Positions 12,447-20,908 of a stretch of DNA of 64,000 nt are shown here, piece by piece. The notes under the pieces were generated by a model. The model was given only the letters and a program-made list of their open reading frames with translations. It was not told where the DNA came from and did not search any database. Each line of letters begins with the position of its first letter. Position 1 is the stretch's first letter. Source of the stretch: Reinekea thalattae (GTDB taxonomy: Bacteria > Pseudomonadota > Gammaproteobacteria > Pseudomonadales > Natronospirillaceae); contig NZ_VKAD01000001.1 in NCBI RefSeq assembly GCF_008041945.1, positions 1,054,001 through 1,118,000 on the forward strand, given 5' to 3'. Both the position numbers and the translations under genes were made by a program.

Positions 12447-12521
12447 TAACTCTTCAATCAATTACTAACTCATCAATCGACTACTAACTCTTCAATCAAT
12501 TACTAACTCATCAATCGACTA
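12447..12521. repeat. Four tandem copies of a 19-bp repeat
   Basis: The sequence TAACTCWTCAATCRAYTAC occurs four times head to tail. Two types alternate (TCTTCAATCAATTAC and TCATCAATCGACTAC), so the larger unit is 38 bp, present twice. The array reaches the stop codon of the beta-helix gene, whose TAG is its last triplet on the minus strand. It therefore forms most of that gene's 3' untranslated region, ahead of the shared terminator. Confidence 0.9.
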
Positions 12522-13694
12522 TTTAGTCACACTGCCTTTGTACATTTTCTTGCTGTCGGCAGGGATTCGAGTGTTGTTCGACACCTGAGTGGTATCTTCG
12601 GTGTTATTTTTAACCACCAAATGATCCAAGCTTTTCTCTTTCGTTTCTTCCGAAGAAACCGGCTTGCCTTTAGAGCCTAACGCCAAGGTCAGAGTAATCT
12701 TAGTCTTACCTGCGTATTCATCGTTAAAGGTTAAAACGTTGTCGTGGATGTTGTTATAAAAACCCCAACCCGGCTGTTTGGTGTTTACTTCGAATGCGTT
12801 CTCAAAGTATGGGTTACCGTTCTGGTTGCCTTCGTTGTACGCAACCTCAGCATAGTTACCCTTAAGGTCCATATAGCTCAAACCACCATTTAAGATGTCG
12901 TTCATGCCAGCGGCATCAAAGGTGTTGCCAATAACATAGGCGTAAGAAGAACCTTCTTTAATGTCGATGTGTTCAGCCGTTACATTTGGGCCAATCACAT
13001 TGTTAATAATTTGCGTGTAATCCACTTTTGGATCGTATTCTGAAGAGCTGCTGCCGCCCGGCCATTTTCGATAGTCCGAACCGATGTAGATACCTTCACC
13101 GTACTTAACGTTATACAAGCCAGTGTCGTGAATGTAAGAATTTTTAACAATGTTATATGCGCTGCCGTCACGTAGGTGAATGCCCGCTTGGCCAACATTG
13201 TAAGCTTCGACACCGTCGATAGTAACGTAGTCCGCTTTATCAACCGTAATACCACCACGGGCATTGGTCACCTTAATGTTTTGTACATAGATGTAGGCAA
13301 TATCAACGTCACCGCCATCAATTGCAAAGGCCGTTTTGTTGTTATAGTCGCCACCATCCAAAACAGGCATATTAGAAGCATTCGCCCCAACAACCCAAAT
13401 AGGCTTGTTTTGTGTACCACTGTTCTTCAGTTTAAACAGACCTGGGTAAGTACCCGAAGCAATAACAATCTTGTCACCCGGTGATGCTTTAGAAAGTGCA
13501 CTGGATAACTCTTTAGAATTACTAACATTAACGACGTTCCAAGACACGCTGTCGAAGTCTTGCGTCATTTCGTTGCCAGTTGCAGCATAGTTTTCTGCAT
13601 AGCCAGTTGAGGTATCGACACCCTTTACGACTTCTGCGTGAGCAAATGAGTATGCCAATACCGAACATACCATAACTAAATTCTTAAGCTTCAT
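12519..13694 (-). CDS. Secreted right-handed beta-helix protein, candidate polysaccharide lyase
   Basis: A 391-aa exported protein with a signal peptide at about 1-20 (ends AHA). Residues about 55-330 show repeated beta-helix rungs, with many N/D/G turns and segments such as DYVTIDGVEAYNVGQAGIHL and NNIHDNVLTF. This architecture is shared by pectate lyases, alginate lyases of family PL6 and chondroitinase B, and the segment EHIDIKEGSSYAYVIGNTF is typical of extracellular beta-helix enzymes. I cannot place it in one CAZy family by eye, so the substrate is open (pectin, alginate or similar). No sugar transporter or other lyase is adjacent. The ATG at 13694 is preceded by AAGGAGC. Confidence 0.8.
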   Translation of the reverse strand: MKLKNLVMVCSVLAYSFAHAEVVKGVDTSTGYAENYAATGNEMTQDFDSVSWNVVNVSNSKELSSALSKASPGDKIVIASGTYPGLFKLKNSGTQNKPIWVVGANASNMPVLDGGDYNNKTAFAIDGGDVDIAYIYVQNIKVTNARGGITVDKADYVTIDGVEAYNVGQAGIHLRDGSAYNIVKNSYIHDTGLYNVKYGEGIYIGSDYRKWPGGSSSSEYDPKVDYTQIINNVIGPNVTAEHIDIKEGSSYAYVIGNTFDAAGMNDILNGGLSYMDLKGNYAEVAYNEGNQNGNPYFENAFEVNTKQPGWGFYNNIHDNVLTFNDEYAGKTKITLTLALGSKGKPVSSEETKEKSLDHLVVKNNTEDTTQVSNNTRIPADSKKMYKGSVTK

Positions 13695-16448: not shown

Positions 16449-16762
16449 TTAGCGCTTTTTTAGCCGTTAATTAATAGCACTCAATACACGTCACTTTCTC
16501 CAAGTGGCGTGTTTTTTTCCTTCCTTTTTACTCTAAAAAACCGTGCATGAAAATCTCACTCTTACAGTGAACTATCAGCACTTAAAATCTTAATTGCGTT
16601 ATCACTAAGCTCATATTCTTACTTAGATTACTTAAAATTTTTCGGTTTAATAATTAATTATGGTCTACAGGTAAGAATTCACTATTAATTAAAAGGTGAT
16701 AAGCTAAGAAAAATAGCTAATATGAAAGCACGAACAATAGTGTTTACTGGATAAATACTGAC
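16449..16762. other. AT-rich gap after hupE
   Basis: A 314-bp stretch. It holds the hupE terminator at 16486-16518 and then becomes markedly A/T-rich up to the start of the orphan gene at 16763. The shift in composition begins near 16540 and continues through that gene, which may mark the edge of acquired DNA. No direct repeats, tRNA or integrase remnant was seen at the edge. Confidence 0.4.
16486..16518 (+). terminator. Intrinsic terminator after hupE
   Basis: ACACGTCACTT (16486-16496) pairs with AAGTGGCGTGT (16502-16512), with one G-T wobble, followed by a run of T. It lies 37 bp after the hupE stop. Confidence 0.9.
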
Positions 16763-17671
16763 ATGCAAAACCCTTTATCGGAAAAGTCATATGATATAGA
16801 GCATTCCTTGGGAATGTACGCTCTAGACTATTGCGTTATGAATGCAGATGATATTTACGATAAAGAAAAGCTACAGCCTATAAAAGATACCATAAAAAAT
16901 TGCCACATTTATCTTATCGGACTCACTCCTATTATTCATTTAGTTCATGCTGAACAGCAAAGTAATATTTTATTTCTAAAATATAGAGTCGATAAAGAAA
17001 TTCATAGCATTAATGTTTTACTGCCAGAGAAAGTCACTCTCAAATCAGATAACCGTAAGTTTTACATTGAACACCCTAATGGTCAGCGATCCTGGCCAAG
17101 TGATGAGTACATTCAAACAAAGCTATCAAATCAGACAAATTCAGTAAATTTCGAAGTTAAATATATCGGCCAAGCATATGGTAAAAACGGCTCAAGGAAT
17201 GCTATCGACAGACTTAAGAGTCATGAAACCTTACAAAAAATCGCGCTAAAAGGAATACCAGAAGGCTATCATTTAACATTACTGTTATTATCTATACAGC
17301 CAAACAACCAACTGTATACACTTATAAATCCATTTGCTAAAAACAATAAAGATAGCAACGCTAGAATTAACTCAGGTGTTAATAAATTATATAACACAAC
17401 GGAACATGAACGAATAACGCTATATGAAGCTTCTTTAATTCGCTACTTCTCTCCGGAGTTTAATAAAGAGTTTAAAGATAGTTTCCCATGTACAAATTTA
17501 AAAATTTTACAAGATTGCTACGATAAAGATTTTAGTGGGATTATTGCAGAGATATGTATTGACACTCTTCCATTTAAACTATTTACGGAAAAAGTTAAAG
17601 CCAAACTCTACCATATTGCGAAACACGACCTTCATAAAAATAAAAACCGACGTATGTTTTTTAATTTATGA
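16763..17671 (+). CDS. AT-rich orphan protein with GIY-YIG-like features
   Basis: No named family recognised. The 302-aa cytoplasmic protein is visibly more A/T-rich in DNA than its neighbours, suggesting recent acquisition. Residues 131-160 read like the core of a GIY-YIG nuclease: a YIGQ at 134-137, a Gly-rich loop, then Arg150 in RLKSH. Further on, Glu222 in LYEASLIRYF and Asn234 in SPEFNKEF would match the metal-binding Glu and the late Asn of that fold. The first 125 residues are an unknown domain. If the match is right it may be a nuclease of defence or mobile-element type, but nothing else in the neighbourhood supports that. The ATG at 16763 has no strong Shine-Dalgarno site. Confidence 0.6.
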   Translation: MQNPLSEKSYDIEHSLGMYALDYCVMNADDIYDKEKLQPIKDTIKNCHIYLIGLTPIIHLVHAEQQSNILFLKYRVDKEIHSINVLLPEKVTLKSDNRKFYIEHPNGQRSWPSDEYIQTKLSNQTNSVNFEVKYIGQAYGKNGSRNAIDRLKSHETLQKIALKGIPEGYHLTLLLLSIQPNNQLYTLINPFAKNNKDSNARINSGVNKLYNTTEHERITLYEASLIRYFSPEFNKEFKDSFPCTNLKILQDCYDKDFSGIIAEICIDTLPFKLFTEKVKAKLYHIAKHDLHKNKNRRMFFNL

Positions 17672-17813
17672 TAAGTAGCAAGTGAAATCTGATTTTTCTA
17701 CCTAATTGAAAACCACTTAAGACTAATCTCTCGCTGTTATTATTTGCACTGCCTACACACTTTCGCCTAAGCTGAGCCACTCTTAACCACCAAAACGAAT
17801 TCTTGAGGCTCCG

Positions 17814-18214
17814 ATGAAGATCAACTGACTAGCATTCCTGTTTTAGACCAACAAAAGGCGTTGGAGTTTTACACCCAAAAATTGGGCTTTAGCGTGAAGC
17901 AAGATGAGCCGGTTGGTGAGCACCGCTGGTTAACGGTGGTTGCTGAACAGAATGCAGCAACCGTTGAACTGTTGTTGGAGCCAATGGCGTTTGAACCGGC
18001 GCGGGTTTATCAGCAGGCGCTGTTCGATGTGGGAATTCCAATTACCATGTTTGCCAGTGATGATTTAGCTGCCGAGGTGGCGTTATTACGTGAGCGTGGT
18101 GTTGAATTTAAAGGCGAGATAATGGAAATGCCGAACGTTAAGCTGATCCACTTTGAAGATACCTGTGGCAATATTCTTGCCTTGGCAGAGCAAATCGATA
18201 CCGGCAACAGCTAA
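17814..18214 (+). pseudogene. VOC/glyoxalase family gene with a 5' frameshift
   Basis: Dimeric vicinal-oxygen-chelate fold protein related to glyoxalase and fosfomycin-resistance enzymes. From 17825 to the stop at 18214 the frame encodes a normal family member, beginning LTSIPVLDQQKALEFY and including HRWLTVV and the metal-site region FEDTCGNILALAE. The proper start is ATG 17814, which has TGAGG five bases upstream, but that frame reads MKIN and stops at once. Adding one base at 17823-17824 restores a typical start (MKIKLTS). No in-frame ATG exists after the upstream stop, only TTG at 17861 inside the domain. It is a frameshifted gene or a one-base sequence error. Confidence 0.75.
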
Positions 18215-18909: not shown

Positions 18910-19458
18910 CTACAAGGAAAGCAGTTCCCATCTTTGGTAATCTTGATTTGCATCGCTGCAAGTTTGCAAGCTGACTGGACGCATGACATGCACTGGCGAA
19001 CCACCACGGCCTTCGCGTTTTTCAGTACTGCTGGCGGTCACGCAAAGTTCTGGATTGGCATCTAAAACTAGATTGCCATCGGTTTGCAATGAAAATTTCT
19101 GACTGTTGCTGTTATCACAGCTGGCGAGCATGAGGTCTGCGCCCTGTTCTAATTCTGTTGCCACCATGCAAACATCAAAGTAATCGATCTTAAATTGCGA
19201 TTCGCTGACTAATTCAGCATCGAAGCCTTGGTCTTCTAAAATCTCACCTCGGTAGTCATAGCAAGTATGCGCCTGCAAGCCACGCTCAACCGGTGCGTTT
19301 TTACCTTGCCCACCGGCAACATCTAAGCAATAGCCACGGCTCTCATCGATATTATCGACTAGGCGAACTTCAACCAGTTCGCTTGCATAGGATGTACTGC
19401 AGACCAGCGCTATGAATGCAGCGCTAAAAAATGTGCGGAGGCTTAAAAATATTTTCAT
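18910..19458 (-). CDS. Secreted ricin-type beta-trefoil protein
   Basis: A 182-aa exported protein with signal peptide about 1-26. The mature part looks like one ricin B-type trefoil: three subdomains with RGYCLDVAGGQG, LMLASCDNSNSQKF and a final QDYQRWELL, the Q-x-W motif of ricin lectins, and paired cysteines in each (CLDV..HTC, CMVA..ASC, CVTA..QTC). Such domains bind galactose or other sugars, often on glycans or enzymes. There is no attached catalytic domain, so it may be a free lectin or adhesin. It is 238 bp downstream of the DUF1566 gene on the same strand; both are secreted. GAGAGA precedes the ATG. Confidence 0.72.
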   Translation of the reverse strand: MKIFLSLRTFFSAAFIALVCSTSYASELVEVRLVDNIDESRGYCLDVAGGQGKNAPVERGLQAHTCYDYRGEILEDQGFDAELVSESQFKIDYFDVCMVATELEQGADLMLASCDNSNSQKFSLQTDGNLVLDANPELCVTASSTEKREGRGGSPVHVMRPVSLQTCSDANQDYQRWELLSL

Positions 19459-19696
19459 TGGTTCTCTCTCTTTTGTGTTGTGAGCTCTAGTTATTTTTGT
19501 TCGTGCTTTTTTATTAGTGAATTTTTTATTAATGGCTGTTTTTTAATAACTATTTTTATTAATAGTGAGTGCAGCCTTGATGCTCAGACTAATAGAATCG
19601 TTATGGTTTTGCTTTCGATTTACAGATTAGTTAATCAACCTAAACAATCGCTTCACATCGAGGCTCCTCACATCACTAATTATTACTGCCTATAAA

Positions 19697-20908
19697 TTAT
19701 TGCGCGTCTCGCACTAGACGCACCCAGTTGTTAATTGAGATATAGTCGCTCGCCATTTCTGAGGCTAACTCGTAATCGCTTGGCTCACCTGTTTTTGGGT
19801 CACTACGTTGTGCGCCTGCACCGTGCCAGTCGTAATATTCGGTCGCGTCTGAGTTTTTCTTGCTCCACGCTTGGCCAAAGGCGACATAAACAGCTGTCCA
19901 TTTAAAATCACCCTGTGTGGTGCTAGTCCAAAAATAGTAGGCATCTTCAACCGAATCGAATGAATCTAGACTGACGTTAAAGACATCGGTATTAATCGCA
20001 GGGAAGCTTTGCTTCTCATAATCAACCAAACTTTGTAACTCTTTTGAGTTCGGTAAACGCCAATCACTGTAGCCTGCCAATTCTGAGTTTTCGGCATACT
20101 CCAAAGCCTCGACCCAGTCCATCGTTTCGCCGCTGTCGTTCTTGGCCCACATTAAACCGGTGGATTGGTCGGTGACGGTTTCATCACCGTTATCAACGTA
20201 GTCCATATCGTAAAGTGTTGTCGTGCTGCGTACGGCTCGAACAAAGCAACCGGGCACAAAGGCGTTAGTTGGCATTTCGGTGCCGTCAAAATACAAACCA
20301 GTCTCGTAAGATTTAATGTGACCATCGGAAAAGTTAAAGCCAAAAGCACCCTGAATGCCGCCGTGCTCGGTAAGGTTTTGCACATCATTTTTCACATAAA
20401 CCGTGCTGGACCAAAACTGACCAGCAAAGGCTAAGCGGTCGTACTGATAATCAAAGTAGTCGGTATCGATATAGGGCTGGCTTTCGCCTTCGTCTTCCGG
20501 CTTGATCAATTCACCATCGAAATTGGCGATGGAATACAGCTCTTTAATAGTGGGTACACGCCAATCGTCGTAACCGGCTAACTCCATATTTTCGACATGC
20601 TCAACCGTGTCGGCCAAGTTACGGCGCGTTGAGTCATATGCTTTCTGCCACATTAGGCCAGTGTTTAAATCGGTAATGGTGCCGTCGCCGTTATCGACAT
20701 AACCTAGTTCGTTGCCTACAACAGAGGCATCCTGGCCGGTATAAAGGCTGGAACTCGACGCCGCCAATACTTTGCCTTCGGTATCGTACTGTTTGCTTTG
20801 CCCAGTATCGGGCAGCAAAGGGCTGTCGGTTGCGGCAAATAATGGCGCACTGATTAAACTGGAGAGCACCATGGCTGGAATTAATAAACCGGCTGCTATT
20901 TTTTTCAT
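19697..20908 (-). CDS. Secreted protein with two DUF1566 (Lcl C-terminal-like) domains
   Basis: A 403-aa exported protein with signal peptide about 1-25 (ends LFA). Two copies of the DUF1566 domain follow, about 70-230 and 235-400. Each opens with VDNGDGT-type and TGLMWQK motifs and continues through ELAGY(D/S)DWR(V/L)P, (I/S)KEL and a late FWSST/FWTST. This module occurs in many secreted and surface proteins of aquatic bacteria, such as Legionella collagen-like protein Lcl, where it binds glycosaminoglycans. A binding or adhesion role is therefore plausible. GAGGTAA stands before the ATG. The divergent gap upstream (20909-21213) is full of short repeats. Confidence 0.82.
   Translation of the reverse strand: MKKIAAGLLIPAMVLSSLISAPLFAATDSPLLPDTGQSKQYDTEGKVLAASSSSLYTGQDASVVGNELGYVDNGDGTITDLNTGLMWQKAYDSTRRNLADTVEHVENMELAGYDDWRVPTIKELYSIANFDGELIKPEDEGESQPYIDTDYFDYQYDRLAFAGQFWSSTVYVKNDVQNLTEHGGIQGAFGFNFSDGHIKSYETGLYFDGTEMPTNAFVPGCFVRAVRSTTTLYDMDYVDNGDETVTDQSTGLMWAKNDSGETMDWVEALEYAENSELAGYSDWRLPNSKELQSLVDYEKQSFPAINTDVFNVSLDSFDSVEDAYYFWTSTTQGDFKWTAVYVAFGQAWSKKNSDATEYYDWHGAGAQRSDPKTGEPSDYELASEMASDYISINNWVRLVRDAQ

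Follow-up and report, generated by a model that had tools for sequence, protein, structure and literature searches.

The window analysed here, a stretch of 64,000 nucleotides from Reinekea thalattae, contains one gene that differs in base composition from everything around it, which raises the question of where such a gene comes from and what its protein does. The open reading frame (ORF) starts with an ATG at 16763, its stop ends at 17671, and it encodes 302 amino acids. Its GC content is 0.323, versus a mean of 0.462 (sd 0.029, z -4.8) for the 57 other ORFs of at least 100 amino acids in the window, the lowest of which stands at 0.389. The GC content at third codon positions is 0.277, versus 0.462 for the same 57 ORFs. 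Only six of 1262 sampled segments of 909 bp are equally AT-rich, and all six overlap this ORF. A previous sequence-only reading, which described the DNA as far more A/T-rich than its surroundings, was right on this point. A 150-bp GC scan gives values of 0.26-0.36 across 16500-17600 and of 0.42-0.53 from 17700. The AT-rich stretch extends from about 16500 to about 17700, and the piece probably acquired around the gene is delimited by composition alone. The features of the locus are the following:

16763..17671 (stop included), + strand: whole gene, encoding a predicted 302-amino-acid GIY-YIG family nuclease, phrog_15714-like (ORF, PHROG match, AF2 model)
16513..17740, no strand: AT-rich segment that probably corresponds to the acquired piece (150-bp GC scan, edges approximate)
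16486..16512, + strand: terminator-like hairpin after hupE, downstream of which the nuclease gene starts (hairpin scan, weak)

The hairpin is a weak feature, as one was observed near the gene and shuffled sequences yield 0.8 on average. The promoter scan found one promoter-like site, versus 6.0 in shuffles, and thus shows no promoter. Nothing convincing was found in the way of terminal repeats or target duplications around the gene, nor was an empty site found: in the relatives covered by the search, the homologues of hupE and of the glyoxalase gene are distant and apart from each other. The host genome carries a single copy of the nuclease gene. Its neighbours are hupE, glyoxalase, psiE, and one gene without assignment; three of these four flanking genes (two per side) match other Pfam families and one matches none, and the locus is not a defence island. 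The tRNA genes of the window, three in number, lie from 45267 onward. The glyoxalase/VOC gene directly downstream (17800-18214) has, by eye, no in-frame ATG where its homologues L096 and L097 start, and its 5' end seems truncated or out of frame; an error in sequencing, gene decay, or damage next to the acquired segment would all fit equally well. Some genes near the locus (12519-13694 and 18910-20908) look secreted: one encodes, as judged by eye, a right-handed-helix-like protein, and Pfam indicates a ricin-type lectin for another and two stretches of Lcl_C for a third.

The gene had been considered an orphan, a view that does not survive wider searches. In PHROGs, phrog_15714 matches the protein over residues 117-300 (E 8.1e-32) and belongs by profile to the same family, with no function on record; what the present analysis contributes beyond this function-less entry is a fold, an active site, and a genomic context. 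Pfam, NCBIfam, and PADLOC give no match to the window protein up to E 10, and neither do phage records up to the same limit. A tblastn search of plasmids with the window protein returned 40 records (E limit 10, the weakest rows being doubtful), with full-length matches in Proteus, Sinorhizobium, Rhizobium, and Acinetobacter, and partial ones in Rhodococcus, Agrobacterium, Priestia, Lactobacillus, and Staphylococcus. Motif scans identified 57 loci on genome contigs and 25 on IMG/VR viral contigs. The family, thus, occurs on genome, plasmid, and viral contigs of hosts from six phyla, mainly Pseudomonadota, with single loci in Actinomycetota, Myxococcota, Planctomycetota, and Bacteroidota, and with Bacillota members on plasmids only. 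No description of it was recognised among open-licence PMC papers. Two of the loci call for a remark. The Proteus mirabilis "plasmid" record L003 (NZ_OL790812.1) measures 4.09 Mb and is chromosome-sized; by eye, its nuclease gene lies beside integrase and phage-like recombination genes, near guaA- and guaB-like genes. In the prophage L002 (4550-6909), a cytosine-methyltransferase-like ORF, a small ORF, and the nuclease gene follow one another upstream of terminase-like genes, again as judged by eye.

The AF2 model of the window protein (pLDDT 91.5, pTM 0.89) allows the chain to be divided as follows:

16763..16900, + strand: N-terminal arm, residues 1-46, with a long strand (12-27) and helices (28-32, 34-45) (DSSP of the AF2 model)
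16901..16933, + strand: first nuclease strand and its end, residues 47-57, with Tyr50 as the GIY equivalent (conservation, truncated model)
16934..17143, + strand: variable, β-rich segment inserted between GIY and YIG, residues 58-127, putative module for recognition or sensing (model, conservation, dN/dS)
17144..17497, + strand: rest of the GIY-YIG core, residues 128-245, with YIG at 134-136, R150, H154, E222, and N234 (conservation, UvrC match, hhalign)
17498..17668, + strand: conserved C-terminal tail, residues 246-302, no fold assigned (conservation)

The strand-strand-helix-helix-strand-helix order of the core is found in the model (strands 47-56 and 129-137, helices 147-152 and 155-163, strand 169-178, helix 214-229), as read from the sequence of predicted elements in DSSP and not from strand-pairing coordinates; a strand (183-188) and a helix (198-211) come in addition. 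When the C-terminal half was modelled without strand 47-57, pLDDT fell from 91.5 to 78 and most of the sheet was lost, so this strand fits as part of the nuclease. The protein had been described as a nuclease joined to an unknown domain of 125 residues. An extra region does exist, but it is mostly internal to the nuclease, since the strand HIYLIG (48-53) precedes most of it: the supposed domain comprises the N-terminal arm, the first nuclease strand with Tyr50, and a β-rich insertion of about 70 residues between GIY and YIG. A GIY-YIG domain typically counts about 100 residues, and restriction endonuclease members carry insertions (PMC1564403, available in part). The present family departs from that typical domain, in which GIY and YIG lie close together.

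The insertion (five strands and one helix in the model) is also the part of the protein that changes most readily, together with the N-terminal arm. Among 31 close rows, no position of residues 58-127 reaches 90% conservation, such positions ending at P56 and restarting at F130. Mean conservation is 0.31 in the insertion and 0.32 in the arm, versus 0.65-0.66 in the three catalytic segments; residues 166-212 stand at 0.39 and the C-terminal tail at 0.52, where K247, H284, H291, R296, F299, and F300 are among the positions that reach at least 90% conservation in the close clade. Whole-gene dN/dS ranges from 0.06 to 0.23 in 11 of 12 pairs (the remaining pair has no synonymous change), which indicates that the gene is kept by selection. 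The insertion has a higher dN/dS than the core in all ten pairs with finite values, some of which share members and some of which are synonymous-saturated, and the arm matches or exceeds the insertion in several pairs. This faster change of insertion and arm is as expected of a recognition module. Structural comparison of the whole chain by VIA-align yielded weak rows that covered the insertion only, mostly ribosomal proteins near Z 3, with Cas12o1 as the best (Z 4.0); they are not taken as kinship, and no known fold was recognised in the insertion.

The catalytic residues can be examined in an alignment (A2) of 74 rows, consisting of the window protein and 73 of the 82 genome- and viral-contig loci; near-copies, fragments, one row with an internal stop, and plasmid rows were left out, and the partial row L038 was retained. 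Y50 is present in 73 of 74 rows (one gap), R150 in 73, and Y134, G136, H154, E222, and N234 in all 74. The scan motifs included E222 (all scans) and H154 (viral contigs), so the conservation of these two is partly by construction; Y50, Y134, R150, and N234 lie outside the motifs. The GIY-YIG order previously noted for YIG (134-136), Arg150, Glu222, and Asn234, thus, rests on near-invariant positions, and with the tyrosine of GIY included, the alignment displays the whole succession (GIY Tyr, YIG, central Arg, C-terminal Glu, Asn). Tyr50 and His154, absent from the earlier list, complete the active site as predicted from these conserved positions. The first glycine of GIY is replaced by His in 64 rows and by Asn in nine, HIYLIG (48-53) being the form in the window protein, and position 52 is Ile in 67 rows and Val in six. 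Y50 and Y134 equivalents are 83-103 residues apart in 72 rows; the two remaining rows, one of them partial, have spacings of 56 and 124.

This layout resembles that of R.Eco29kI (PF09517), whose active-site residues are given as Y49, Y76, R104, H108, E142, and N154 in the available part of its description (PMC1952068). There, the Tyr-Tyr-Arg-His-Glu-Asn site has the same order and equal spacings between Arg and His (4) and between Glu and Asn (12), and the core is likewise extended by insertions, but the tyrosines are 27 residues apart instead of 84 in the window protein.

Relations to known GIY-YIG folds are distant, and single-sequence searches give little. An eight-sequence profile against PDB sequences reached the UvrC GIY-YIG domain at E 0.0034, with an unrelated zinc-finger protein at 0.018, and a 74-row profile reached UvrC at E 0.3 only. 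Over the 74 members, the two most frequent Pfam families are RE_Eco29kI (eight members, best E 0.041) and GIY_YIG_2 (five members, best 0.014); unrelated families reach 0.011, each in one or two members, so these single-member matches are at noise level, and they fall short of the PF09517 cut-off. A search for PF20815 found no member in 150 genomes, nor in the controls. Profile comparison with hhalign, whose figures are single comparisons and not a library search, is more telling. Against 11 Eco29kI-family domains, global alignment gives 88% for residues 126-245 and 78% when the insertion columns are omitted (reversed-column control 0.05%), and 0.07% for the whole profile and the C-terminal half; local alignment gives 47-73% for four profiles (control 0.24%), a signal that rests on the E..N motif. 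Against 20 UvrC domains, the values are weak (20-43% local and 9-18% global; controls 2.3% and 0.3%). For the accepted pair Eco29kI-UvrC, the same method returns 52% locally and 1.3% globally. Against a third set of 29 domains, which we take to be mostly YhbQ-like, the reversed control (5.1%) outscores the real profiles (0.4-0.7%). The Eco29kI family is, therefore, the closest profile of the three GIY-YIG groups compared.

At a limit of E 0.001, Foldseek matched neither the whole chain nor the half chain to any PDB structure, nor the whole chain to any entry of BFVD; the whole-chain searches were uninformative, probably since the insertion breaks up the core. With VIA-align, the model of the C-terminal half matches four of 117 chains at Z 2 or more, all of them UvrC GIY-YIG domains, with modest scores (Z 3.6-3.8 over 63-64 residues, rmsd 2.5-2.6). 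Taken with the AF2 model and the Eco29kI profile comparison, this UvrC match makes the window protein very probably a GIY-YIG nuclease, as had been suggested from its motifs, and fold and profile evidence point towards this family and not to an unrelated fold. UvrC being the sole solved structure matched, a UvrC-like nuclease of cellular repair or recombination, with an odd insertion, has to be considered; it is very improbable, given that two further GIY-YIG genes exist in the host, one of them with a frame of 615 residues, which is the length expected for UvrC, and that the gene under study is AT-rich, mobile, and patchy (three of 390 genomes of the order, its own included).

Mobility is visible at several levels. 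In 88 of 93 loci, the nuclease gene has a higher AT content than the surrounding locus, with a mean GC difference of -9.8 points; a few of the loci are mutual copies. It is absent from all 193 other relatives searched (one of 194 with its own genome). In the tree, the window sequence stands beside Halomonas (67% identity), and families and orders are mixed, for example with Actibacterium beside Sphingopyxis. Twenty-nine pairs of loci share at least 72% DNA identity. Long flanks are common to some of them (e.g., L017/L018, L070/L071, and L088/L089), and others share almost nothing beyond the gene. The copies of Hydrogenophaga (L044) and Advenella (L049), 94.3% identical, have 33 bp in common before the gene and 0 bp after it, with a separate 86-bp match downstream. 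Among Sphingobium (L028), Actibacterium (L030), and Sphingopyxis (L040), identity is 82-88%; the copies share 49-169 bp ahead of the gene and 18-113 bp behind it, and show no other match at E 1e-20 within their 8-kb flanks. For Dechloromonas (L014) and Nitrotoga (L015), 80% identical, the flanks are -27 and 63 bp. Near-bare sharing of the gene between genera, thus, amounts to about three independent cases.

A larger unit is shared in one instance: Pandoraea bronchicola (L062:2942-11439) and Aquitalea palustris (L063:2944-11438) have 8.5 kb in common at 93.6% identity. The piece contains the nuclease gene, QatC and QatD directly upstream (shown in L063), and integrase-like ORFs downstream (split in L062), and looks like a single mobile defence island present in two families. 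Relatives of eight mobile-element seeds (five integrases, a resolvase, a transposase, and an HNH protein) turned up in 17 of 93 loci, a count that includes the five seed loci, and a Pfam integrase occurs in five of 109 neighbours (second half of the neighbour set); mobile-element genes, therefore, lie near some copies but are no fixed partner. Altogether, sequence comparison supports a nuclease gene acquired horizontally and apparently travelling as a single gene. The proposal of acquisition by transfer is, thus, upheld by composition in 88 of 93 loci, patchiness, a mixed tree, and bare-gene sharing, and the relatives show neither ordinary base composition nor vertical inheritance.

Spread of the gene by itself would also be compatible with a selfish, free-standing endonuclease of the homing type, propagating by cutting empty sites. 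GIY-YIG is indeed a homing-endonuclease fold (PMC1564403, in its available part), copies occur on viral contigs and plasmids, and some are common to different genera with little beyond the gene. Nevertheless, this explanation is improbable: the copies have no common neighbour (each Pfam family is found in at most two of 108 and five of 109 of the 217 neighbours), the neighbours are rich in defence genes instead, and the window protein contains no Pfam DNA-binding module.

The neighbour set consists of two ORFs per side of 55 genome-contig loci, or 217 proteins, L024 and L039 (near-copy, cut off) and 79 viral-contig neighbours of the 296 listed having been dropped. At E 1e-10, 128 PADLOC models match among the first 108 neighbours and 92 among the other 109, versus three among 108 control ORFs (60 from the window and 48 around glyoxalase/hupE homologues in relatives); these counts are of models and not of proteins, and one protein can match dozens, which makes the ratio larger than the real effect. 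The control is, moreover, rough (108 of 158 listed ORFs, unmatched for taxon and gene length). When 20 hand-picked neighbours were scanned singly, 12 matched PADLOC, in 10 loci, and eight did not. The first ten scans gave seven matches, namely a retron RT (L022), type IIG (L035 and L038), QatC and QatD (both L063), DdmE (L066), and IetS (L061); the second ten gave five, namely DRT2 (L016), PDC-S53 (L047), PDC-S46 (L053), DdmD (L066), and a partial DolB/PDC-M37B (L020). Cas1 and Cas7 models also matched among the second 109 neighbours (locus not traced). In Pseudoalteromonas (L066:1399-7934), the nuclease gene follows DdmD- and DdmE-like genes, DdmD and DdmE being a plasmid-defence pair. Defence-gene neighbours were, thus, traced in at least 10 of 55 loci, and not for the window copy. 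The earlier expectation of a defence or mobile context finds support in the PADLOC-rich neighbours of relatives and in the plasmid and viral-contig copies; it holds for homologues, which lie near known defence genes, but not for the copy in the window. No Pfam family emerges as a fixed partner, the most frequent occurring in two of 108 and five of 109 neighbour proteins.

Methyltransferases deserve separate attention, as an Eco29kI-like type II restriction enzyme whose methyltransferase is encoded elsewhere in each genome would account for the closest of the three profiles compared. With a strict motif, which missed at least L038 (a type IIG match), methyltransferase-like neighbours occur within four ORFs in seven of 93 loci, and a looser motif gives 11 of 93, with a false match included; this motif scan, thus, shows no conserved methyltransferase partner across the 93 loci. 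The cytosine-methyltransferase-like ORF seen by eye just upstream in prophage L002 speaks for such an enzyme. The low counts at the other loci (7/93 strict, 11/93 looser) speak against it, as does the fact that two of the methyltransferase-like loci match type IIG enzymes, which are complete systems themselves. Transfer of the lone gene would also be expected to kill recipients devoid of the methyltransferase, and the best Pfam match of any member to the Eco29kI family is at E 0.041. A type II enzyme is, for these reasons, highly improbable.

A complete nuclease site, the lack of a conserved methyltransferase, lone transfer, and defence neighbours lead instead to a self-sufficient restriction nuclease. 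An anti-phage or anti-plasmid function exerted by this single gene is likely, as predicted from sequence comparison. Such an enzyme would restrict incoming phage or plasmid DNA on its own. Its catalytic site would be formed by Tyr50 and Tyr134 (the GIY and YIG equivalents), Arg150, His154, Glu222, and Asn234, as in R.Eco29kI, and it would cut DNA with one divalent metal ion, single-metal catalysis being described for GIY-YIG enzymes (PMC11037411, available in part). The target would be recognised by the insertion of about 70 residues, together with the N-terminal arm and the conserved tail. As the gene travels alone, without a conserved methyltransferase, self and non-self would have to be told apart without a methylation partner. 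The most likely trigger would be a base modification carried by invaders and absent from the host chromosome, as for a type IV enzyme. Dependence on modification was reached by elimination and is given a little less than an even chance. G6mATC is an unlikely trigger, as the hosts of the family include Dam-positive genera (presumably Proteus, Vibrio, and Providencia). The proposal as a whole, that is, a stand-alone, horizontally acquired GIY-YIG endonuclease that restricts phage or plasmid DNA recognised by its modification, appears slightly more probable than not. Prediction and comparison support the fold, the active-site layout, lone-gene transfer, purifying selection, and the defence neighbours in relatives; nuclease activity, the defence role, the insertion as a sensor, and modification dependence are what we infer.

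Several known systems offer points of comparison, each through the available part of its published description. CMoRE/PD-T4-3 is a type IV GIY-YIG enzyme for 5hmC and 5ghmC, and like the window protein it is encoded by a single gene, combines a GIY-YIG core with one extra domain, and has no methyltransferase, defence having been shown for CMoRE (PMC12923530). It differs by its GIYxY-YIG motif, the third tyrosine of which is replaced by Ile or Val at position 52 in the present family, and by a separate C-terminal sensor, whereas the extra domain of the window protein lies inside the core (PMC12923530). Ahi29725I and Apa233I, which are wH-GIY-YIG N6-methyladenine-dependent enzymes, are likewise of type IV and add a domain to the GIY-YIG core, but their reader is a winged helix, whereas the insertion of the window protein consists mainly of β-strands in the AF2 model (PMC11037411). 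SNIPE/PD-lambda-1 is likewise an anti-phage GIY-YIG nuclease encoded by one gene, and its recognition region is variable; it has a membrane anchor and carries DUF4041, for which the window protein gives no Pfam match up to E 10 (PMC13190303). Judged from these partial descriptions, neither CMoRE, SNIPE, nor the wH-GIY-YIG enzymes have the architecture of the window protein.

SNIPE also suggests a trigger other than modification. The nuclease could sense a phage protein, a replication structure, or an entry complex, with the insertion as a docking surface; the extra domain of SNIPE, itself a GIY-YIG defence protein, probably binds phage tape-measure proteins (PMC13190303, in its available part). 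Such a role would agree with the insertion and the N-terminal arm being the most variable parts, as expected of an arms-race interface. This alternative is unlikely, as the window protein matches neither DUF4041 nor PADLOC and has no known phage partner.

If the modification-dependent restriction nuclease proposed here is real, it would represent a defence nuclease family spread over six phyla, for which the databases searched (Pfam, NCBIfam, and PADLOC) hold no model matching the window protein, and a second single-gene GIY-YIG architecture beside CMoRE. A broader and distinctly tentative idea is that of a class whose target reader sits within the catalytic sheet itself, inserted where the GIY strand is followed by the YIG strand, in which each insertion would constitute a new specificity, and whose members would move as bare single-gene units without a methyltransferase, reading the modifications of invader DNA. 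If the main proposal holds, exchange of the insertion would offer a direct route to study the evolution of restriction specificity, and the family might supply new readers of modified DNA.
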